Source: a virus. Taken from it: a DNA stretch of 40,062 nt. The stretch lies in IMG/VR virus record IMGVR_UViG_3300048916_000014, positions 1-40,062 of that record, one strand, 5' to 3'. Shown here piece after piece: positions 1,810-35,066 of the stretch; position 1 is the first letter of the stretch; every line of letters begins with the position of its first letter. The translations under genes were made by a program, and so were the position numbers. The notes beneath the pieces are model-generated. The model did no database searches and had not been told where the DNA came from. It saw only the letters and a list, made by a program, of their open reading frames with translations.

Positions 1810-2066
1810 TTCCCCATCCTGTCGTTTCTGCGTTCAGGGCTTGAATATATAGAGTCCTTAATCAGGGACTTCAACAAAGCAGTAATCAGCGGCCAGAGTT
1901 GCCCGACTAGTTCCCTCCTTCGAGTCGGGGTATCTGGATACGGTTTAGCCGGTTCGTACCGTAACATCGCAAAACACCGGCAGCCTGCGAGCCCTACAAA
2001 CGCTTACTCTGGGGGTTGTGCAGGCGGACTGATGGAAAGACATCAGGAATCAACCAACGCCAAGTG
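1810..2066 (+). other. long structured leader of late transcript
   Basis: About 250 noncoding bases between the late promoter and an intrinsic terminator. I see no convincing gene. Inverted repeats are AGTCC 1853-1857 with GGACT 1866-1870; CCCGACT 1902-1908 with AGTCGGG 1923-1929; TACGGT 1939-1944 with ACCGTA 1958-1963; and GCCTGC 1983-1988 with GCAGGC 2020-2025. The set resembles a folded leader RNA through which an antiterminator would act. It does not fold as a tRNA by eye. The function is inferred from the layout. Confidence 0.5.
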
Positions 2067-22837: not shown

Positions 22838-25303
22838 ATGGCCAACCAGACCCAGCGGCTTGAACTCGCCACGGTTAACGCAGAACTCGGCAGCCACATT
22901 CTTTTCCGGTTCGCCAATGACGCCGTTGGCGCCGCCCTGATTCCGACCGACTCGGGCGACATCAAGAACCTGAAGCAGGTCGTCGTCGACATCCAGGCAG
23001 ACGGTGCGGAAAAGATCAGCTTCGCCACCACGATCTATCCGACCACGGCGGCGGGCATTGCGGCGACCACGGATGGTGCGATCTTTCTGGTGAAGTCGTC
23101 CGATCCAGACGAGATCTATGCCGTCTACAGCAATACGGCTGGCGTGGCGGTGGACACCGGGAAGCGGGCGCTGTCAGCGACAGCCATTCAGGCGGCAATG
23201 GATGCGGCGAATGCGTCGGCTGATGCCGCCGAGTCCTCTGCCGATGACGCCGCCCTGCGTGTCGCGCCGTTCCTTGGAACCTTCGCTACTGCTCCTACTC
23301 TACGCAATGATGGCTCTGCACTGCAGATCGGAGACCGCTACTTCAATAGTGGCGACGACACTGAATACCTCTACAGGTCGGCAGGCTGGGAGCCGAGCAA
23401 TGTCGACTGGGATGATCTAGCGACCGCCACTGGGCTCGTTTCCGTGTCGGCCATGCGCGCCATCAGCACCATTTTTTTCACTCGCGCCGAGACGCTGGGG
23501 TATACCAGCGCCGGGGACGGCGGCCACGGAAAGTATTATTTTATTCTTGATGCAACCCCGCCAACCGATAACGGCCTTACAGTCATCCACTCTGACGACG
23601 GTCGCGGCTATTGGGTGCTAATCCATAGCGGAACAATCGACGTTAAGCAGGCTGGCGCACGGGCAGGGATTGATTGCTCGACGGCTTTTTCCAAGGTTGC
23701 CGCCGCTGTTGTTGCGAGCAACGGCGCGATTGCGCGTGTAGTGTTCTCAGCTGTGAGCGGCGGACAATACACCGTCGGCAGCCAGGTGCTGCTCAACTGC
23801 AGCCAGGTGACTTACGAGTTCCATGCAGATGTGGTCAATACATCCACTGCATACACCACACCGCTGGTCTTTGCGCACGACATCAATGCTCAGCCGCTGG
23901 CGGCGCTGTCCAACGTAACCATTGTCGGTAACGGTTATAAATGGGACGGAAACGGCGCGGCTATTCTGGCGGTAATGGGGCTAGGGGCGGGGGTTCTGCC
24001 ATCTACCTTTCCGGCACCGATGTTTAACTACATCGACAACCTCAAGATTCATGAGGTCGACTTTGCTAACGGCGTGTATGACAGCCTCAATCTAAGGCAA
24101 TGCCGTAACCACAAGATCAGCAAGTGCATTTTTCGTGATGCTACGCAGTACCTGGCCAACGGCCTGAACATCACCACTAACTGGGCGACGTATATTCGTG
24201 GAGATTACCGCACCTACAGTCACGGAGTGGTTGAAGATTGCGTGGCTTACAATAACTCATCGATGGGGATGACCTATTACCACTGTAGCGGTGGTACATT
24301 CAGAGGGTGTATTGCGCATAATAATGGCCTTAACAATGGGTCCGGCGGGTCAGGAAGCGGCTTCAGCTACGAGTCACCATCGGGCTCGGTATCGATAAAA
24401 TATGCAGATGGCCGATTTGAAAACTGCCACGCTAACAATAACGGAATCAATGGATACTACATCAACACGCCGGGGGTGACAGTCGATGCAGACTGCACTT
24501 CGATGGGTAACGGCGTACTAGGCCTAACCAACGATGTCAGCGGCTTGCAGATGTGCGGGGTAGTGGTTTCTGGCGCCGATCAGGTCACCGTACTCGGAAT
24601 CCATACGCTCAACGCGCGTCATGGGGTTTCCTTCCTCGGCGCGACCGGCTTGCTCCCAACCTGGAACTGCGGCGGCGAGTACAGCGACAATGCCGGCTGC
24701 GGTATCGCGATCCAGAGCATTCATCGCGGCGGCATAAACCCAGGGACCAAGCTTTTCAGGAACGGTCGAACCCTTATTGGTGGGCAGAACCTACCAGCGC
24801 TCAGCGTGTCGAACTCGGCCTACAACAACATGGGCGGCTCATTCACGGCGGTTGGCCTGGAGTTTGACAGCAACGGCGCCCGAGATATCAACGTCGCGAA
24901 CGTGCGCACGGTTGAGGTCGGCAACTGCAAATCTTTCAACACCAATGATGTGCGCGGTTCTACTGGCGGCACAGGGTACAACTTCGGCGCGATCACAGCG
25001 CTGTTATTGCACGATAACTTCCTGGATGTATCCGGCAATGGATGGACTACGAACGGCTATATCGTCAACAATGACGTTTCCGTTTGCTACCAGAAGAGTA
25101 ACAAGTCCAATCAGGCGTCCGGAACGGTCATGACCAATAATGCCAGCACTAAGTTCGGCATTTCTAACGCCGCACGAATGACGACAAGCACTCATACAAC
25201 CCTTACATCCCTTCCCGCAACCTCTTCAGCAACTCTCGCTAACGTTGCAGATTCCTTGGCTACGCTGATTGAATCACTGAAGGATGGCGTTATGCAGGGT
25301 TGA
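22838..25303 (+). CDS. tailspike with beta-helix, possible depolymerase
   Basis: An 821-residue receptor-binding protein. Residues 1-120 are a virion adaptor; about 120-200 is a helical Ala-rich linker then a fibre domain (IGDRYFNSGDD); from about 265 (DVKQAGARAGIDCSTAF) a right-handed beta-helix of the pectate-lyase superfamily runs with many Asn/Gly/Cys turns, ending in a serine/threonine-rich tail. Such spikes often degrade capsule, O-antigen or exopolysaccharide. Catalytic residues cannot be named by eye. The beta-helix part looks more AT-rich than flanking structural genes, consistent with exchange of host-range modules. Confidence 0.88.
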   Translation: MANQTQRLELATVNAELGSHILFRFANDAVGAALIPTDSGDIKNLKQVVVDIQADGAEKISFATTIYPTTAAGIAATTDGAIFLVKSSDPDEIYAVYSNTAGVAVDTGKRALSATAIQAAMDAANASADAAESSADDAALRVAPFLGTFATAPTLRNDGSALQIGDRYFNSGDDTEYLYRSAGWEPSNVDWDDLATATGLVSVSAMRAISTIFFTRAETLGYTSAGDGGHGKYYFILDATPPTDNGLTVIHSDDGRGYWVLIHSGTIDVKQAGARAGIDCSTAFSKVAAAVVASNGAIARVVFSAVSGGQYTVGSQVLLNCSQVTYEFHADVVNTSTAYTTPLVFAHDINAQPLAALSNVTIVGNGYKWDGNGAAILAVMGLGAGVLPSTFPAPMFNYIDNLKIHEVDFANGVYDSLNLRQCRNHKISKCIFRDATQYLANGLNITTNWATYIRGDYRTYSHGVVEDCVAYNNSSMGMTYYHCSGGTFRGCIAHNNGLNNGSGGSGSGFSYESPSGSVSIKYADGRFENCHANNNGINGYYINTPGVTVDADCTSMGNGVLGLTNDVSGLQMCGVVVSGADQVTVLGIHTLNARHGVSFLGATGLLPTWNCGGEYSDNAGCGIAIQSIHRGGINPGTKLFRNGRTLIGGQNLPALSVSNSAYNNMGGSFTAVGLEFDSNGARDINVANVRTVEVGNCKSFNTNDVRGSTGGTGYNFGAITALLLHDNFLDVSGNGWTTNGYIVNNDVSVCYQKSNKSNQASGTVMTNNASTKFGISNAARMTTSTHTTLTSLPATSSATLANVADSLATLIESLKDGVMQG

Positions 25304-27691: not shown

Positions 27692-28297
27692 TTATTGGCA
27701 CGGCTCCCAGCCAGGAACGCTAAGTCGAACCAAAGTTCTGGCTGTATCCATAGGCACTGGCAGTGATTCGTGAATCATCGTCACGTTGCCGGCATAGGCC
27801 ACTCCAGCGAGCAGGCGAACCTCGGAGAGCTGCGACAAATCCATCATCGAGCAGTCTCCACCCTCTCCTGGCATTTCATAGAACTCGCCGATCAATGCGC
27901 GGGATGCGCTGACATCTGAAGCAAGAATCAAGGCTTCCGGCGCAGAAAAGTCGCACTGCGACCAGCCTGGGCTTGGATTCTGCCATTTTCCAGCATGGCC
28001 TCCACCTCCACCATGTCGGCCTTTAGCAGCGATCCAATACCCGTCAATATGGGCGCCGGGGCGCCGGTGCGAAGCATTCGCCCTAACTACGCCTTGATCC
28101 ACCATTAGATAGATTGGGCCATCAGTATCCACGCCGACAAGCATCTGGTTGACAGTTTCCTGCCAGCGAGACAAGTCCGACGGCAGGCCTGTTTCAAGCC
28201 GGAATTCGCGCATGTAGATGCGCTCCGCCAGGAACGACGGAAACTCAACCTTGCCAATTTCAGTAACGCGACTGACATTCTTGTTTGTGTAAGTCAT
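27692..28297 (-). CDS. possible 2OG-Fe(II) oxygenase-like protein
   Basis: A 201-residue protein of unassigned family. It has His83-x-Asp85 (GAHIDGYW), a Gly-rich loop (95-103), His176 (MIHESLPV) and Arg187 or Arg191 (ARTLVRLSVP). That order and the His-to-Arg spacing match the HxD...H...R iron and 2-oxoglutarate site of the double-stranded beta-helix oxygenases. If correct it might hydroxylate a nucleobase or protein. No experimental family is recognised, so this is a motif-based proposal. It overlaps the serine recombinase stop by ATGA. Confidence 0.6.
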   Translation of the reverse strand: MTYTNKNVSRVTEIGKVEFPSFLAERIYMREFRLETGLPSDLSRWQETVNQMLVGVDTDGPIYLMVDQGVVRANASHRRPGAHIDGYWIAAKGRHGGGGGHAGKWQNPSPGWSQCDFSAPEALILASDVSASRALIGEFYEMPGEGGDCSMMDLSQLSEVRLLAGVAYAGNVTMIHESLPVPMDTARTLVRLSVPGWEPCQ

Positions 28298-28914
28298 TTC
28301 GGATCCTCGTCAATTTGTTTATCGCGAATCTTGGCTACTGTGGTCGGGCTGCACTCGGCCAATTCGGCCACCCGCTTCACCGATAGCGTCTTGTCGGTCA
28401 TCAGCGCCTTCACCCGTGCGTGCAGCAGCACGTCAACCGGCCTGCCCTTGTACTTCCCGGCCTTCTTGCTTTCTGCGATCCCTTGAGCCTGTCGGGTAGC
28501 TCGCGTCTCCCAGTCATCACGCGCCATCTGCATGGCAACCTTGAGCAGCATGTCCTGCACTGCATCGAGGATGATCCGGGCCATTCCGCCGGCCTGAATG
28601 TCGGACAGGTCGACAATCCCCGGCACCACTAGCTTCGCCCCCTTCCCTTTGATCGCCGCAATGATCGCTTCTGCCTCTGGCAATGGCGCCCGCGTGATGC
28701 GATCCATCTTCTCTGCGATCACCACGTCACCCGGCTGCAAATCGGCAATCATCCGATTCAGTGCAGGCCGGTCAGCGCTGGTGCCGCTCATCTTGTCCTC
28801 GTAAATCCCCGCAATGTAATAGCCTTCATCCATCGCCTTTCCTACCAATGCCCGCTGCCGCTCAAGATCCTGTTCGGCTGTGCTGACGCGCAGGTACACC
28901 CTGGCATTCTTCAT
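28294..28914 (-). CDS. small serine recombinase (resolvase/invertase)
   Basis: A 206-residue serine recombinase. YLRVSTAEQDLERQR supplies Arg9 and nucleophile Ser11; GTSADRPALNRM and EKMDRITR (about 44-55 and 68-75) complete the catalytic set, followed by the long E helix and a C-terminal helix-turn-helix (LSVKRVAELAECSPTTVAKI). Its size is that of resolvases and DNA invertases, not large serine integrases. In a phage it could invert a fibre segment, resolve multimers, or be a captured mobile-element gene. An AT-rich intergenic region with a promoter and hairpin lies upstream and is a candidate recombination site. Confidence 0.9.
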   Translation of the reverse strand: MKNARVYLRVSTAEQDLERQRALVGKAMDEGYYIAGIYEDKMSGTSADRPALNRMIADLQPGDVVIAEKMDRITRAPLPEAEAIIAAIKGKGAKLVVPGIVDLSDIQAGGMARIILDAVQDMLLKVAMQMARDDWETRATRQAQGIAESKKAGKYKGRPVDVLLHARVKALMTDKTLSVKRVAELAECSPTTVAKIRDKQIDEDPK

Positions 28915-29264: not shown

Positions 29265-29990
29265 TTAGATGGCCATTTCGGCCTGTGTTTCTCGCAGCCA
29301 GATGGGAGAGCTGTTGTGTGATTCGATCCTATCTGCGATCACATTGGCACGCTGGCCTGCCGTTGGCGGAACGTACATCCCGTAGCGCTTGATGCTGCCT
29401 CCGTTGACCGTTGCATTTGTAGAGTCAGCCGAAGTCAGCGGCAGGTGCTGGAAGATCTCCGGGTTAAGCATGCGCAAACCATGCAGTCGACAGATCGGCC
29501 GTCCGTGCTCATCGCAGATTTCATTCATCGCCGCGCCTATGCGCTTCCACCATGGCTTTGTGCCTGGCGATGACCACTGGCCCGAACTACCGATTGCAAC
29601 TGTCGGCCATTCAGTGGCCAGACGCTGAAGACGCTCAAGCGATTCGTGCAAATGCCAGACCGGAACGCCGCGAAACTCCTTTGGCCACTCTGCCAACAGC
29701 GCGTCATTCGCCGCCTCGTTACCGTCGATCACGTCAGGGATAAGTGCCCAATCGAAGCCTGGATGCCTATGCCACTGTTCAACCCAGCGGGTATACCCGT
29801 CGACGTCCATTGGCACGCCCTTCGTCCAGGCCGAGAACGCACCGTTATCAAAAACAAATGACTGGCAGGCCTCGGCAACGATGCCCATGTCATCCTGGCG
29901 TGGGAACGGCACTAATGCATGGCGCCCCATGAGAAAGCTGGCCTTGCAGTTGAGCGTCCCACCGACTGGCGTACCGTGGTAATGGATCAT
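29265..29990 (-). CDS. TGT/DpdA-like base-exchange enzyme
   Basis: A 241-residue protein resembling the phage DpdA branch of tRNA-guanine transglycosylases, which insert 7-deazaguanines into DNA. Visible motifs are FVFDNGAFS (Asp48, compare DSGGFQ in TGT), ALIPDVIDG (82-90), WHLHES (112-117), GSSGQW (134-139), LHGLRML (169-175) and TSADSTN (186-192, a candidate nucleophile Asp189). No precursor-synthesis genes (queC/D/E-like) are seen here, so the host would have to supply preQ0 or a related base. The likely role is masking phage DNA from restriction. The assignment is from motif memory, not a search. Confidence 0.62.
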   Translation of the reverse strand: MIHYHGTPVGGTLNCKASFLMGRHALVPFPRQDDMGIVAEACQSFVFDNGAFSAWTKGVPMDVDGYTRWVEQWHRHPGFDWALIPDVIDGNEAANDALLAEWPKEFRGVPVWHLHESLERLQRLATEWPTVAIGSSGQWSSPGTKPWWKRIGAAMNEICDEHGRPICRLHGLRMLNPEIFQHLPLTSADSTNATVNGGSIKRYGMYVPPTAGQRANVIADRIESHNSSPIWLRETQAEMAI

Positions 29991-30232
29991 GCCGCCAGCC
30001 TTACCGTTTCAATCTCTACACCTTGGTGCGTGGCCGTTATCGTTTGATCTCCGCCCAGCGCCTCGGCCAGTCGATCAGCGATCTGCTCGTGCCATCCTTT
30101 CTTGATCAGTGCAGTGGCCGCCTTGATGTGCTCGACATGAATCATCGCCAGCGCCCTGATCTCAAGTCGATAGATGATCGCTTCTCCGTCGGACGGGCAG
30201 ACAGCTGTAAAAGTGTGCCGGTAAGTATTCAT
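29987..30232 (-). CDS. hypothetical protein, 81 aa
   Basis: An 81-residue soluble protein: a beta strand pair (YRHTFTAVCPSDGEAIIYRLEI), then a helix (MIHVEHIKAATALIKKGWHEQIADRL) and a short strand tail (GVEIETVRLAA). Its start has AAGGAATTCCC upstream and its stop overlaps the DpdA-like start by ATGA, so the two are translated together. No family recognised. Confidence 0.72.
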   Translation of the reverse strand: MNTYRHTFTAVCPSDGEAIIYRLEIRALAMIHVEHIKAATALIKKGWHEQIADRLAEALGGDQTITATHQGVEIETVRLAA

Positions 30233-30271: not shown

Positions 30272-30439
30272 TTATGCCGCAGGGGATCGCAGCCCATCCC
30301 GCTCAGCCCGCACAATCGCATGGCGAATTCCTCGGCCAAGGTAGCGCTCGATCAGGTGCCAGGTGACGCCATCGGTGTGCAGCTCGTAGGCGAGCACGAG
30401 GGTTTCGCGGGTATGCTTGAATTGGGCGCCGGGCTTCAT
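30272..30439 (-). CDS. small putative helix-turn-helix protein
   Basis: A 55-residue basic protein starting at ATG 30439, overlapping the upstream cupin gene stop (ATGA). The stretch TWHLIERYLGRGIRHAIVRAERDGL has the look of a compact helix-turn-helix, and the composition suits DNA binding. The ribosome binding site (GAGACG) is moderate. Could be a small regulator; no family match by eye. Confidence 0.6.
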   Translation of the reverse strand: MKPGAQFKHTRETLVLAYELHTDGVTWHLIERYLGRGIRHAIVRAERDGLRSPAA

Positions 30440-30981
30440 GGCTTCGTCTCGCCGGTATAGGTTCGCCACGGCATATTGCGGCCGCTGACCATGAAGCCCC
30501 AGTCGCCACGCCACTTGCTGGTGATGAACAGAGTGAATGCGCCTTCTGGCTGCACGTAGTCGATGCGGTGGTACTCGCCGAACGTCAGTGTCGCGGTATC
30601 ACCCGAACGGCGGATGATTCGCACTCGTCGCGTTACCGACAGGATCGATCTGGTTCCTTGGCGAATGGCTGGCCGCTCTTCGGTGTACCCGCCGCGCAGG
30701 ATGATGGTGCGCGCATTCCACGGGTGCGAGTGCAGGTCGCGGTCAGCATCCGGCCGCATGATGTGGTGAATTCGGATCGACCACGGGAACCACCAGAATT
30801 TCGCCTTGTGCGTCTCGCGGCTGTACGGGTTGAACAGCCACCAGCGGCCCATGTACATGTCGGAACCGTCGGCGGACATGATGTGCTGGTACGGGGTGCG
30901 CTGGGCTCGGGCGATGAGCCAGTTGGCGATGGCTGGGCGGGCAAGCAGCTTGGCGAGCAGGCGCCAGAAGAGATTGATCAT
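30436..30981 (-). CDS. cupin-like protein
   Basis: A 181-residue protein with an N-terminal amphipathic segment (FWRLLAKLLARPAIANWLI) and a cupin core: LHSHPW (His84, His86), GGYTEE (Glu101/102) and EYHRI (His138), a plausible metal site. The first 25 residues could associate with the membrane. Cupin-like proteins recur in phage accessory regions; their substrates are unknown. ATG 30981 overlaps the NinX-like stop. Confidence 0.75.
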   Translation of the reverse strand: MINLFWRLLAKLLARPAIANWLIARAQRTPYQHIMSADGSDMYMGRWWLFNPYSRETHKAKFWWFPWSIRIHHIMRPDADRDLHSHPWNARTIILRGGYTEERPAIRQGTRSILSVTRRVRIIRRSGDTATLTFGEYHRIDYVQPEGAFTLFITSKWRGDWGFMVSGRNMPWRTYTGETKP

Positions 30982-31337
30982 GATTTCACCAGTTCGGCAG
31001 GGACGCGCACGGTGTCGCCCAGCTTGTTGGCGACGATGGCGCGGCAGGCAGCAATGATCGGTGTTTCTGCATGCCATGCCGCCGTTGAATCTGTCCAAGC
31101 GCATGGGTTGCAGGCTTCATCGGAGTAGATGATGCTGACGCGATACCTAGCGATAAGCGGGCCGCACTGGTGCCAGTTGAACGATGGCATCCAAGGGGAT
31201 TGCAGGCCAGGACACACGTTTATGCGCAACTCCTTGCCGAGAGAATCGTCAATCACGATTTCGCAGGCCAATGCCACTGCCCAATCCAGCGCCGGGCCAA
31301 TCAGTTCAGCCGTCTTCACTTCGGTCGTCTTATCCAT
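30978..31337 (-). CDS. NinX-like (DUF2591) protein
   Basis: A 119-residue protein with LIGPALDWAVALACE near residue 14, FNWHQCGPLIARYRV near 55 and AETPIIAACRAIVANKLGDTV near the end, the DUF2591/NinX pattern of lambdoid phages. Function unknown; members lie in nin or early regions. ATG 31337 with AGGAGG upstream is preferred to GTG 31340. It shares one base with the previous stop. Confidence 0.85.
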   Translation of the reverse strand: MDKTTEVKTAELIGPALDWAVALACEIVIDDSLGKELRINVCPGLQSPWMPSFNWHQCGPLIARYRVSIIYSDEACNPCAWTDSTAAWHAETPIIAACRAIVANKLGDTVRVPAELVKS

Positions 31338-31513: not shown

Positions 31514-32092
31514 TCAGTCGGCTCCTTTCTCGGGCGCCTCATAAGGAACGGCAGGCGATGCTTCGATGATGGTTTTCAGAATCGGTTTCCAGATCGACCA
31601 CCAGGCTGATGCGCGCGAATCCATTTCCTGAATTTCTTCATCGCCGAACGCCCACCACTCAGTCAATGCATGGAACTGGCAACCGATCTGCATCTTGTCC
31701 GCTGTGTACGTCACCGGCCAGAGATCGCACTGCACAGACTTGACCTGCGACAGGTTGCCGAAAGCGCCCCATATCGAAGCGGCGTAGCGCAGGTCGGCGT
31801 AGCGCAGGTCGGCGTAGCTCAGGTCGGCGGAGCTCAGGCTGGCGTAGCGCAGGTCGGCGTAGCGCAGGTCGGCGGAGCTCAGGTTGGCGGAGCGCAGGCT
31901 GGCGTAGCGCAGGTCGGCGTAGCGCAGGTCGGCGGAGCGCAGGCTGGCGTAGCGCAGGTCGGCGTAGCGCAGGTCGGCGGAGCTCAGGTTGGCGGAGCTC
32001 AGGTTGGCGCGTTCGCCGCCCTCTTCATCGTTTAGCCATGCGCGGTGCTTCCGAATGATCTCGTCAAGTTGTTCAGTGGTGAAAGTTCGCAT
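31514..32092 (-). CDS. pentapeptide-repeat protein
   Basis: A 192-residue protein. Residues 1-28 are a helical head ([14 protein letters not shown]); residues 29-103 are fifteen pentapeptides of A(D/N/S)L(R/S)(Y/S) type that should wind a right-handed quadrilateral beta-helix; the last 90 residues carry [18 protein letters not shown] and [12 protein letters not shown], a tail common to phage pentapeptide proteins. Some pentapeptide proteins mimic DNA and block gyrase, but no specific target is visible. It directly follows phaZ with no terminator between, so it may be co-transcribed from the phaZ promoter. GGAGTAAG precedes the ATG. Confidence 0.88.
31784..32008. repeat. 225-bp tandem array of 15-bp units
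   Basis: The DNA coding the pentapeptides is made of near-identical 15-base units such as GGCGTAGCGCAGGTC (plus strand), also grouped as 45-base triplets ([17 protein letters not shown]). Because the unit is a multiple of three, unit gain or loss keeps the frame. It is not a CRISPR array: there are no unique spacers. Confidence 0.85.
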
Positions 32093-32120: not shown

Positions 32121-33011
32121 TTAAAGTGCTGCGAGGGTCCGCTCATACAGGTCATCATGCTCGGCGGACATCGGTGATTTGGTGTTCTGGCGCTCGGCGA
32201 CTAGCACGCCGCCCGACAGGAAGCCGGTGACGATCGGTGCGACGGTCTTGGCCTGCGTCACCAGAAACAGGTGGCCGTCGTTGATCACGTGCAGCTGCGA
32301 GCGCGGAATCAGGTTGGCCATCATGCGCATGTTGACCAGCGGAATCAGTGGGTCGTCATTGCCGGCCAGTACCAGCGTCGGCTGCTTGATCTTGTGCAGC
32401 CAGTGCGCTGAGGTCCATGCCCAAACCGCCATGGCTTGATAGTAATAACCGCGCCCGCTGGGCGATTTCATCTTGCTGGTGTGCGCGGTGGCCAGCGACT
32501 TGTCGTAACGGAACGCGCCGCCGTAGATGTCCGGGGCGATGCGTGCACCGTGCTCGGGGTCGGTGTAGCGGCGTGGCGAGGCCATCAGGCTCAGCACCTT
32601 GAGTGATGGGGGCACCATGGCGACCCCGCAGGAGGTGGCAGCAAGGATAAGTCGTCTGCACCGGTGCGGCTGGTCATAGGCGAACTGCTGGGCCAGAAAG
32701 CCTCCCCACGACACGCCGATCACGTTGACTTGGTCATAGCCCATCACGTCCAGCATCGTGGCGACGGTCTTGGCCATGCCGCGAAAGGTGTACGGCAGCA
32801 GCGGAGCCGGCGAACCTCCGACACCGGGCACGTCGAAAGCGATGATTTCTTGGTCAGGGTCCAGCTCATTGGTGAACGGGATGACCAAGTCCAGCGATGC
32901 GCCGATGCCGTTGAACACCACCAGCGGGGTCAGGTGCGATTTACCTGGGCGAACCGCCGTCCTGATTGACAGCCCATCCACTTGAACAGTGCGGAAAACA
33001 AAAGCCTTCAT
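32121..33011 (-). CDS. phaZ: PHA depolymerase PhaZ-like alpha/beta hydrolase
   Basis: A 296-residue alpha/beta hydrolase closely resembling intracellular medium-chain-length PHA depolymerase PhaZ of Pseudomonas. The nucleophile elbow GVSWGG gives Ser101; NDDPLIP supplies Asp220 and DGHLFLV His247. This is the PhaZ triad (Ser102/Asp221/His248 in P. putida, from memory) shifted by one. Other family blocks are IRTAVRPGK, FNGIGA, FDVPGVGG, MASPRRY, IYGG and WLHKIKQPTLVLAG. It would hydrolyse stored 3-hydroxyalkanoate polymer on granules. The C-terminal 30 residues differ from what I recall of chromosomal PhaZ. ATG 33011 (GGAG upstream) is chosen since an upstream in-frame start would overlap the promoter. 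Confidence 0.9.
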   Translation of the reverse strand: MKAFVFRTVQVDGLSIRTAVRPGKSHLTPLVVFNGIGASLDLVIPFTNELDPDQEIIAFDVPGVGGSPAPLLPYTFRGMAKTVATMLDVMGYDQVNVIGVSWGGFLAQQFAYDQPHRCRRLILAATSCGVAMVPPSLKVLSLMASPRRYTDPEHGARIAPDIYGGAFRYDKSLATAHTSKMKSPSGRGYYYQAMAVWAWTSAHWLHKIKQPTLVLAGNDDPLIPLVNMRMMANLIPRSQLHVINDGHLFLVTQAKTVAPIVTGFLSGGVLVAERQNTKSPMSAEHDDLYERTLAAL

Positions 33012-33047
33012 TTCGTCGTGCTCCGGTTGGTCCTTATTGATGGACTC

Positions 33048-33076
33048 ACTATGCGCTGACAATCCGGTTAGGTCAA
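33048..33076 (-). promoter_or_regulatory. sigma70-type promoter for phaZ
   Basis: On the minus strand TTGACC (33076-33071) and CATAGT (33053-33048) are exactly 17 bases apart. The -35 matches five of six and the -10 four of six. A transcript would start near 33041, about 30 bases before the phaZ ATG. Confidence 0.68.
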
Positions 33077-33096
33077 CAAACAAGTCAACGATTTAT

Positions 33097-33433: not shown

Positions 33434-33582
33434 CACTGATCCCTCTGGTATTTGGCCTGTCGCATCTTGGAGCAGGCCGAGTGGTTGCCGGATGCGCGGA
33501 CCTTTCCGCACACGTCACAGCAGTTTGATATGGCAAGGCGCGGCATGGGTGGGCGCTGGTTGCGGCGCCTGCGTGGGGTCAT
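33433..33582 (-). CDS. small zinc-finger-like protein, 49 aa
   Basis: A 49-residue basic protein starting MTPRRRRNQRPP with a Cys cluster CCDVCGK and a later HSACS, fitting a small zinc finger. GGAGGT lies just before the ATG. It overlaps the dcm stop (ATGA) and shares bases with the next start (TGATG), so it is sandwiched in the operon. It is short and easily missed. Possible nucleic-acid binder. Confidence 0.7.
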   Translation of the reverse strand: MTPRRRRNQRPPMPRLAISNCCDVCGKVRASGNHSACSKMRQAKYQRDQ

Positions 33583-35066
33583 GCGACCTCCTGGTCTCCG
33601 ATTTCTTTAAGCAGTCGTCGGCCAATCCAGCGAACTACGGGAACGGCTTTGCTATTTCCGATCGCCTTGTAGCGGGGGCCGTCCGGGCACTCGCTTGCTG
33701 GCTTGCCGCGCCAGGGGATGAGGGTGTAATCGTCGGCCATACCCTGTAGGCGTTCGCACTCGACTGGAGTGAGGCGGCGCACAGAGCTCGTATGCGACAC
33801 AATGTTGGGGCCCAGAGCTGAGTCCGTGTTGTCGACCTGTTTGCCGTAGTTGCAGGTCAGCGTCTGGGCCACTTCTCGACATGCAACAATCGGCTGACCG
33901 CGCCCGGTGCCATCCTCGCTGCCGTCGAAACCCTCAGCCTTCAGCGTGTGGGTGATTTCTCCAGTGATGCACACAGCTACCTGGCCGCCGGCGTTTGCAT
34001 GGCTGCCTGAGTGATTCATTGCCCGCAGAGTGGGTGCAATTACCCCGGCATCGGCGCCGTGATCCTTGCAGGAGAAAGCCAGCACTGCATTTTCCTGGCC
34101 GTTGTTTCTGCCCAGAGCGTGCGCTTGGTCAATGCTTACACAGGGGTCTTGCGTACCGTGTACTACAAAGGCTTCGCTTTCGAAGTCCATCCTTCCGCTG
34201 GCGCTGGCGCACGCATTGCGTGCTGGAGCCACCTCAATTGGGCCGCTGGTGTTGTTCCCCCCGAACACCAGAAGGGATTCTCTCGACTCATGGTCACCAT
34301 ATGGGTTGGTCGTTAAAGCTGCAGTTACGTGAGGGATGTCGTCGGTGCTGTATCCGCCGTTCTTTCGAGCGCCGCCAGTAAGGGTGCCGGCAACATCTTT
34401 CCCCTGGCCTCGGCGCGGCGCAGTATCCCGGCGCACGCCTTCGCGCTCAAAAAGTACCTCGGTGGGATCGAACCCGTCTCGAGCACTTGCGACAACGAAC
34501 ACACGACGGCGTCGTTGGGCCAGGCCGAAATATTGGGCGTCCAAGATCCGCCATGCGATTGTTCTTTGGGGTCCATACACACAACCAGCGTCCGGCCACC
34601 TTTTCCCTGAAGGCTGCAGTTCGCAGTCTTCCCCAGCAAGCGCGCCAAGAAAGCATCCGAAGGCGTTGCCTTTGTCGGAAAGGACGCCGGGGACGTTTTC
34701 CCAGACAACGACAGAGGCTGGCAGTCCTCGACTGGCTCGAACATAGTCATTTGCATCTGCAAGCTCCACGTATTTGATGGTGAGGGCGCCGCGGGGGTCG
34801 GCAAGTCCTTCGCGCATGCCGGCCACACTGAATGCCTGGCAGGGGGTTCCGCCGACCAGAACGTCCGGCGCCTCGATCTTCCCAGCAAGGACCATGGTCG
34901 CAAGCCGTGTCATGTCGCCCAGGTTCGGCGTTTGCGGGTAGTGGTGCGCCAGTACGGCGCTGGGGAATGGATCGATTTCAGCGAACCATGCGGCCTTCAT
35001 TCCGAGCGGGTGCCAAGCTACCGTAGCAGCCTCTATTCCACTGCAAATGCTTCCGTAGGTGATCAT
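33579..35066 (-). CDS. dcm: DNA cytosine-5 methyltransferase
   Basis: A 495-residue Dcm-type C5 methyltransferase. Motif I is GSICSGIEAA (5-14), motif IV GGTPCQAFSVAG with catalytic Cys76, motif VI WENVPG (122-127), motif VIII QRRRRVF (184-190), and motifs IX-X near RRLTPVECERLQG and GNSKAVPVV at the end. Between motifs VIII and IX about 240 residues, larger than usual, form the target-recognition region. No cognate restriction endonuclease is adjacent, so it is probably an orphan that protects phage DNA. Coupled by ATGA to the next small gene. Confidence 0.93.
   Translation of the reverse strand: MITYGSICSGIEAATVAWHPLGMKAAWFAEIDPFPSAVLAHHYPQTPNLGDMTRLATMVLAGKIEAPDVLVGGTPCQAFSVAGMREGLADPRGALTIKYVELADANDYVRASRGLPASVVVWENVPGVLSDKGNAFGCFLGALAGEDCELQPSGKRWPDAGCVYGPQRTIAWRILDAQYFGLAQRRRRVFVVASARDGFDPTEVLFEREGVRRDTAPRRGQGKDVAGTLTGGARKNGGYSTDDIPHVTAALTTNPYGDHESRESLLVFGGNNTSGPIEVAPARNACASASGRMDFESEAFVVHGTQDPCVSIDQAHALGRNNGQENAVLAFSCKDHGADAGVIAPTLRAMNHSGSHANAGGQVAVCITGEITHTLKAEGFDGSEDGTGRGQPIVACREVAQTLTCNYGKQVDNTDSALGPNIVSHTSSVRRLTPVECERLQGMADDYTLIPWRGKPASECPDGPRYKAIGNSKAVPVVRWIGRRLLKEIGDQEVA

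Follow-up and report, generated by a model that had tools for sequence, protein, structure and literature searches.

A compact DpdA-family gene and an overlapping QueF-like gene in a phage contig: a candidate two-gene cassette for 7-deazaguanine in DNA

Introduction

The locus described here raises the question of what a phage would do with a DpdA-like gene when no genes for preQ0 synthesis are found with it, and where the modified base would come from. The window, i.e. the whole stretch of DNA that was analysed, is the 40,062-nt record IMGVR_UViG_3300048916_000014. FolE, QueD, QueC and YhhQ families are absent from this record, which is a linear IMG/VR contig and may not include every gene of the phage.

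Singleton phage DpdAs have been a puzzle since 2019, as no precursor genes were visible in 76 phages and the modification status could not be predicted. Hutinet et al. described these 76 phages with DpdA and without preQ0 genes, so that singletons of this type were already known, and placed the gamma-proteobacterial singletons in a separate similarity cluster (PMC6884629). The DNA of Salmonella phage 7-11 contains dADG at about 50 per 10^6 nt (PMC6884629), which by arithmetic corresponds to about 9 per 89.9-kb genome. The features of the window that bear on the question are collected in Table 1.

Table 1. Coordinates of the features discussed, in positions of the window
Feature	Position	Strand	Properties and evidence
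Compact DpdA/TGT-family gene	29265..29990	(-)	241 aa, ATG start; phrog_887, DpdA homology, AlphaFold2 TIM barrel, conserved catalytic residues
D48 codon (DNGAF)	29847..29849	(-)	Aligned with the TGT DSGGF aspartate; D in 97/98 compact sequences
D189 codon (SADST)	29424..29426	(-)	Aligned with the TGT/DpdA nucleophile position; D in 94/98 compact sequences
QueF-like (T-fold) companion, phrog_37496 ('unknown function')	29987..30232	(-)	81 aa; AlphaFold2, Foldseek, profile match, linkage
Companion C12 codon (CP motif)	30197..30199	(-)	Aligned with the thioimide-forming Cys of QueF/QueF-L
Companion E49 codon (HE motif)	30086..30088	(-)	Invariant; aligned with QueF FHE and QueF-L LHE
Dcm-type C5-cytosine methyltransferase	33579..35066	(-)	PF00145, E=1e-34; phrog_116

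The DpdA/TGT-family gene

The 241-aa open reading frame is a real gene for an enzyme of the DpdA/TGT family, the activity itself being predicted from homology and from the modelled structure. It matches phrog_887, annotated 'queuine tRNA-ribosyltransferase', at E=1.5e-70. No match was obtained with Pfam, NCBIfam or PADLOC models, including the PADLOC DpdA model, and sequence searches of the PDB with the protein and with its profile returned chance matches only. In GenBank, 156 phages have a match at E<1e-5, the closest being Pseudomonas phage Epa33 (73%), followed by Vibrio phage Athena1, Lederbergvirus BTP1, SPN3UB, SfI and others at 40-49%. At a looser cut-off, tblastn reached the DpdAs of Salmonella phage 7-11 (36% identity, E=1e-22), Enterobacter phage EC151 (7e-7) and Escherichia phage 9g (2e-4), and a profile of the compact clade matched the DpdA of CAjan at 1e-20, which is the E-value of a single comparison.

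The structure predicted by AlphaFold2 with 61 homologues is an eight-strand TIM barrel (pLDDT 92, pTM 0.89), and a Foldseek search of viral models with it returned many phage queuine tRNA-ribosyltransferases. The sequence-only reading had assigned the gene to this family by the motifs FVFDNGAFS and TSADSTN; both are present and hold D48 and D189, and the homology and the predicted barrel, in which the two catalytic aspartates are kept, bear the assignment out. Among 102 non-redundant relatives, D48, G50, A51, H113, G134 and H170 are 99% conserved and D189 is 96% conserved. Position 173, in contrast, separates the compact DpdAs, where it is Arg in 96 of 98 (HxLR), from the pathway-linked ones, where it is Gly in all four (HG(F/L)G). 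The equivalent position in TGT presumably lies near the base pocket, so that the substrate preference of the compact clade could differ.

It is very improbable that the gene is a moron whose TGT-fold product is inactive or exapted and has no transglycosylase activity. This reading would fit the Mycobacterium hosts of singleton-DpdA phages, which offer no precursor supply, and Mycobacterium phage Orion, whose DNA contains no modified base in spite of a singleton dpdA (PMC6884629), but the catalytic residues are almost invariant over several phyla, precursor genes are linked to dpdA repeatedly (see below), and a dN of about 0.1-0.2 against saturated dS indicates strong purifying selection on the gene.

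Size and distribution of the clade

Compact dpdA loci number at least 591 in IMG/VR and 114 in GTDB genomes, the latter in Pseudomonas, Burkholderiales, Enterobacterales, Hymenobacter, Acidobacteriota and Planctomycetota. The carriers include temperate and lytic phages of hosts in many phyla. Compactness had at first appeared to be the mark of a special branch; this was rejected, as nearly all of the 371 relatives that were extracted are 220-280 aa long and the size is thus that of the entire clade. Pathway-linked DpdAs have about 290-317 aa. In a quick tree those of 9g, CAjan, BcepGomr, RHEph04 and Rinkes were found on a long branch and the DpdA of 7-11 grouped with the compact sequences; the placement of the root is unsure because long branches meet there. 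A 1719-bp GenBank record, OR850331.1, named Staphylococcus phage SA 1298 Kay, contains a Salmonella-type dpdA and is probably misassigned.

The QueF-like companion

The sequence-only reading saw none of the biosynthetic genes that often accompany DpdA, and as to a lack of accompanying genes it has to be corrected. Directly upstream of dpdA lies a gene for an 81-aa protein, and the 4 nt ATGA (29987-29990) hold both its stop and the start codon of dpdA; with this overlap the two genes are probably translationally coupled. The AlphaFold2 model of the companion (pLDDT 97) has the order beta-beta-alpha-alpha-beta-beta of a T-fold. When the PDB was searched with this model using Foldseek, ranks 1-13 were all chains of the archaeosine synthase QueF-Like (5jyx, 5k0p), with TM up to 0.79, and other T-folds, e.g. 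GTP cyclohydrolase I, came below. A profile of 29 companion homologues, compared with 177,635 PDB sequences, also gave 5jyx as the top match (E=0.006; runner-up 0.14), and this alignment brings the Cys, the Glu and the HE into register, with C12 on Cys21 of QueF-L. The alignment by hhalign with QueF from host genomes gave E=4e-4 at a probability of 34%, and the controls (QueD, QueE, ASCH, YhhQ and DpdA) gave E of 0.097 or worse. These similarities of sequence and modelled fold suggest that phrog_37496 is a QueF-like family.

Both QueF and QueF-L have a Cys, which reacts with preQ0 to a thioimide, and an Asp, which serves as general acid/base; the substrate of QueF-L is preQ0 already inserted in tRNA, and ammonium is used (PMC5485725). 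In the companion, C12, P13, Y21, E34, E49 and H69 are invariant among the 29 aligned homologues, down to 22% identity, and 120 of 122 sequences have the CP motif. The position of the general acid/base, Cys+7, is Ile in all 86 sequences of the window's companion group; the Asp is kept in some other companion groups and also in two copies linked to phrog_15826 (in loci L489 and L490). The NADPH motif of QueF, E(S/L)KSxKxY, is absent from the companion, which has VEHIKAATA where host QueF has VELKSLKLY. Because the Cys is kept and the Asp at Cys+7 is gone in the window's group, the companion is named QueF-like here and is not filed as a proven QueF-L, and the final base is accordingly uncertain.

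Linkage of dpdA and the companion

The association of the two genes was counted from both sides. Of the 118 loci counted from the dpdA side, 112 have the companion within 150 bp, and in none is it on the opposite strand. On the companion side, where IMG/VR was queried with single companion proteins alone, a TGT-like gene is adjacent or nearby in 85 of 85 loci, although these are not independent, 80 of them being close relatives (77-100%). The TGT-like gene is a compact DpdA in 82 of these loci, within 150 bp in 79. The association is also found in Microcystis phage Mae-JY30 and in Rhizobium phage RHph_X2_30, where a DUF165 transporter and a small ORF precede the companion and dpdA. Pseudomonas phage Epa33 is an isolated phage that carries both genes, its DpdA being 73% and its companion 72% identical to those of the window.

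In the remaining three loci of the companion-side count the companion adjoins a gene of a second mini-TGT family of about 200 aa (L489:2408-3004, L490:2191-2820 and L491:2384-2989) with the motifs DN, PD(I/V)V, GG(S/T)T and DS(A/V)DG. Two of the three proteins, those of L489 and L490, were searched, and both match phrog_15826 ('unknown function'), which suggests that this family is a second mini-TGT. Downstream in L489 and L491 there is a YhhQ-type gene as well.

The companion is not a general attribute of DpdA. It was not found in BTP1, SfI, AB3P2, 7-11, 9g or CAjan, the first four of which are examples of the many compact DpdAs that lack it, and the DNA of 7-11 has dADG all the same. DpdA might therefore act alone with host preQ0 or preQ1 to give dPreQ0, dADG or dPreQ1, the 81-aa protein being a subunit for binding or targeting whose T-fold is dead, which would agree with the loss of the general-acid Asp in the window's copy. 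We consider this unlikely, though deserving of some weight: the invariance of Cys-Pro, E34, E49 and H69 in such distant homologues suggests that the companion is catalytic, and its linkage to TGT-like genes is strict.

Precursor genes near dpdA and in the hosts

The 371 dpdA loci were clustered at 65% identity into 52 groups for the study of their neighbours. Vut_1/YhhQ (PF02592), the preQ0 transporter family, is a neighbour in 18 groups, QueD (PF01242) in 16 and a QueE-like radical SAM protein in 7, and at least one of YhhQ, QueD and QueE occurs near dpdA in 30 of the 52. All copies of these genes are on the dpdA strand (YhhQ 35/35, QueD 24/24, QueE-like 10/10), mostly within 150 bp. In three Pseudomonas-type relatives of the window with 75-76% identity (L068, L075 and L081), YhhQ is directly upstream.

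YhhQ homologues are rare in phages, being present in 21 of 50,697 GenBank phage records. Seven of the 21 belong, by name, to one mEp/MagusPhagus lineage, of which the two inspected have another gene beside YhhQ; in those of the remaining records that were inspected, dpdA adjoins YhhQ. In Escherichia phage mEp554 (L387) and MagusPhagus (L390) the YhhQ homologue is followed not by DpdA but by a protein for which the MagusPhagus annotation is DNA methyltransferase. In the 2019 survey YhhQ did not correlate with any group of phages (PMC6884629).

QueC was above the cut-off in 46 of the 50 genomes of relatives' hosts that contain a compact dpdA, a weak test since queuosine-type supply genes are common anyway. 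The four genomes without QueC are two of Hymenobacter with YhhQ and TGT, an Actinomycetota MAG with a weak YhhQ and TGT, and a Geobacter MAG with TGT and no YhhQ. No preQ1 riboswitch was found upstream of dpdA with Rfam. Supply of the precursor by the host is plausible, as the sequence-only reading had proposed in pointing to host preQ0 or preQ1 pools, and the 7-deazaguanine context that it assumed is reflected in the neighbours of more than half of the groups.

A further family, which includes the ASCH-domain neighbour of dpdA in Epa33, is found within six genes of compact dpdA in 25 loci of four groups (L009, L012, L014, L082 and others). This ASCH-type family may comprise readers or erasers of modified bases.

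The target of the enzyme

Foldseek comparison of the DpdA model with the PDB placed Cap10 (9ntn) first at E=3e-4, followed by the tRNA-guanine transglycosylase 7a3x at 1e-3 and, below it, generic TIM barrels. The top match is the complex Cap10-CdnD, and Cap10 demonstrates that a TGT fold is able to bind a deazaguanylated protein N-terminus (PMC11996544). The target could thus be something other than DNA, either a protein, deazaguanylated in a Cap10-like manner, or tRNA, e.g. for interference with host defence or translation. Among targets other than DNA a protein is the leading candidate, which structure supports but sequence and gene neighbourhood do not. Sequence homology connects the window's enzyme with phage DpdAs and is not detectable with Cap10, and when the flanks of the relatives were clustered, neither CD-NTase nor Cap9 emerged as a recurrent neighbour. 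The C-terminal zinc motif of tRNA TGT (CxCxxC...H) is absent from all 367 compact sequences, and dADG is present in the DNA of 7-11, a phage with a member of the clade. A target other than DNA is therefore quite improbable.

Proposed mechanism

We favour, with a probability of roughly 0.6, the reading that the window carries a phage DpdA system in which the partner is a minimal QueF-like protein and the precursor is supplied by the host, the two genes forming a cassette that would mark the phage DNA with 7-deazaguanine. The scheme starts from the observed fold, residues, operon overlap and linkage. PreQ0 would come from the host queuosine pathway or through a host preQ0 importer, the genes for which are seen in the hosts of relatives. 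The 241-aa DpdA would then exchange guanine in DNA for preQ0 by means of its catalytic aspartates, by analogy with characterised DpdAs. Cys12 of the companion would attack the preQ0 nitrile to give dG+ or a related base, probably once preQ0 is in the DNA, just as archaeal QueF-L works on preQ0 that tRNA already contains. The modified base could finally block host restriction or other DNA-reading defences. A Dcm gene, which the sequence-only reading had named as part of a possible layered masking of DNA, is indeed present (Table 1), and the methyltransferase is a possible second masking layer.

A bolder version, which we hold to be speculative and unlikely, would make phrog_37496 a new, Asp-less QueF-like branch that acts on DNA-borne preQ0 to yield a product other than dPreQ0, dPreQ1, dADG or dG+, in a two-gene hypermodification cassette present in hundreds of phages and fed by host queuosine metabolism.

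For the singleton DpdAs in general, the linkage with the QueF-like companion, YhhQ, QueD and QueE indicates the source of the substrate, and it predicts that some of these phages contain a processed base and not dPreQ0.

Other genes of the window

The gene at 30436-31104 (-), upstream of dpdA, matches phrog_4786 ('cysteine dioxygenase', E=7e-44) and has no Pfam support. Other genes encode a pentapeptide-repeat protein, possibly a DNA mimic (31514-32092 (-), PF00805, E=3e-21), and, in the minus-strand early region, an alpha/beta-hydrolase (32121-33083 (-), PF00561, E=6e-34, with an esterase/lipase phrog). Near the end of the late genes there is a serine recombinase/invertase (28294-28914 (-), PF00239); an invertible tail-fibre segment was considered for it and rejected, since only weak, imperfect pairs of inverted repeats occur in 22.5-29.1 kb. 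The 821-aa protein encoded at 22838-25303 (+) has no PHROG match and is probably a tail fibre by its position. A Proteo-phage-1 RNA (RF03044, 55.9 bits) is located at 1887-1985 (+).

Comparison with known systems

The companion resembles the archaeosine synthase QueF-Like of Pyrobaculum calidifontis (5jyx/5k0p) in its T-fold, catalytic Cys-Pro, conserved Glu and HE, and in the absence of the NADPH (reductase) motif. It is shorter (81 aa against 109 aa), has no Asp at Cys+7 in the window's group, and, in phages, goes with a TGT of the DNA type.

Cap10 of type IV CBASS (9ntn) has the TGT-family fold in common with the window's DpdA. It differs in binding a deazaguanylated protein N-terminus and in its partners, Cap9 and a CD-NTase, and no sequence similarity was detected; the family of the QueC-like Cap9 (PF06508) is absent from the window record. 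The DpdA of bacterial Dpd islands is a TGT-fold protein that modifies DNA with preQ0-derived bases, as is predicted here for that of the window. The bacterial DpdA is part of a large modification-restriction island.

The pathway-linked DpdAs of Escherichia phages 9g and CAjan are direct homologues with the same motifs, DxGAF, HG(L/F)x and SxDS. They are longer than the window's protein, at about 306-317 aa, have a C-terminal extension, and are encoded alongside the preQ0 pathway. The singleton phage DpdAs (PMC6884629), like that of the window, are DpdA homologues without FolE, QueD, QueE and QueC for which host preQ0 has been presumed. The window differs from them in having the overlapping QueF-like gene, and its wider clade in being linked to YhhQ, QueD and QueE.
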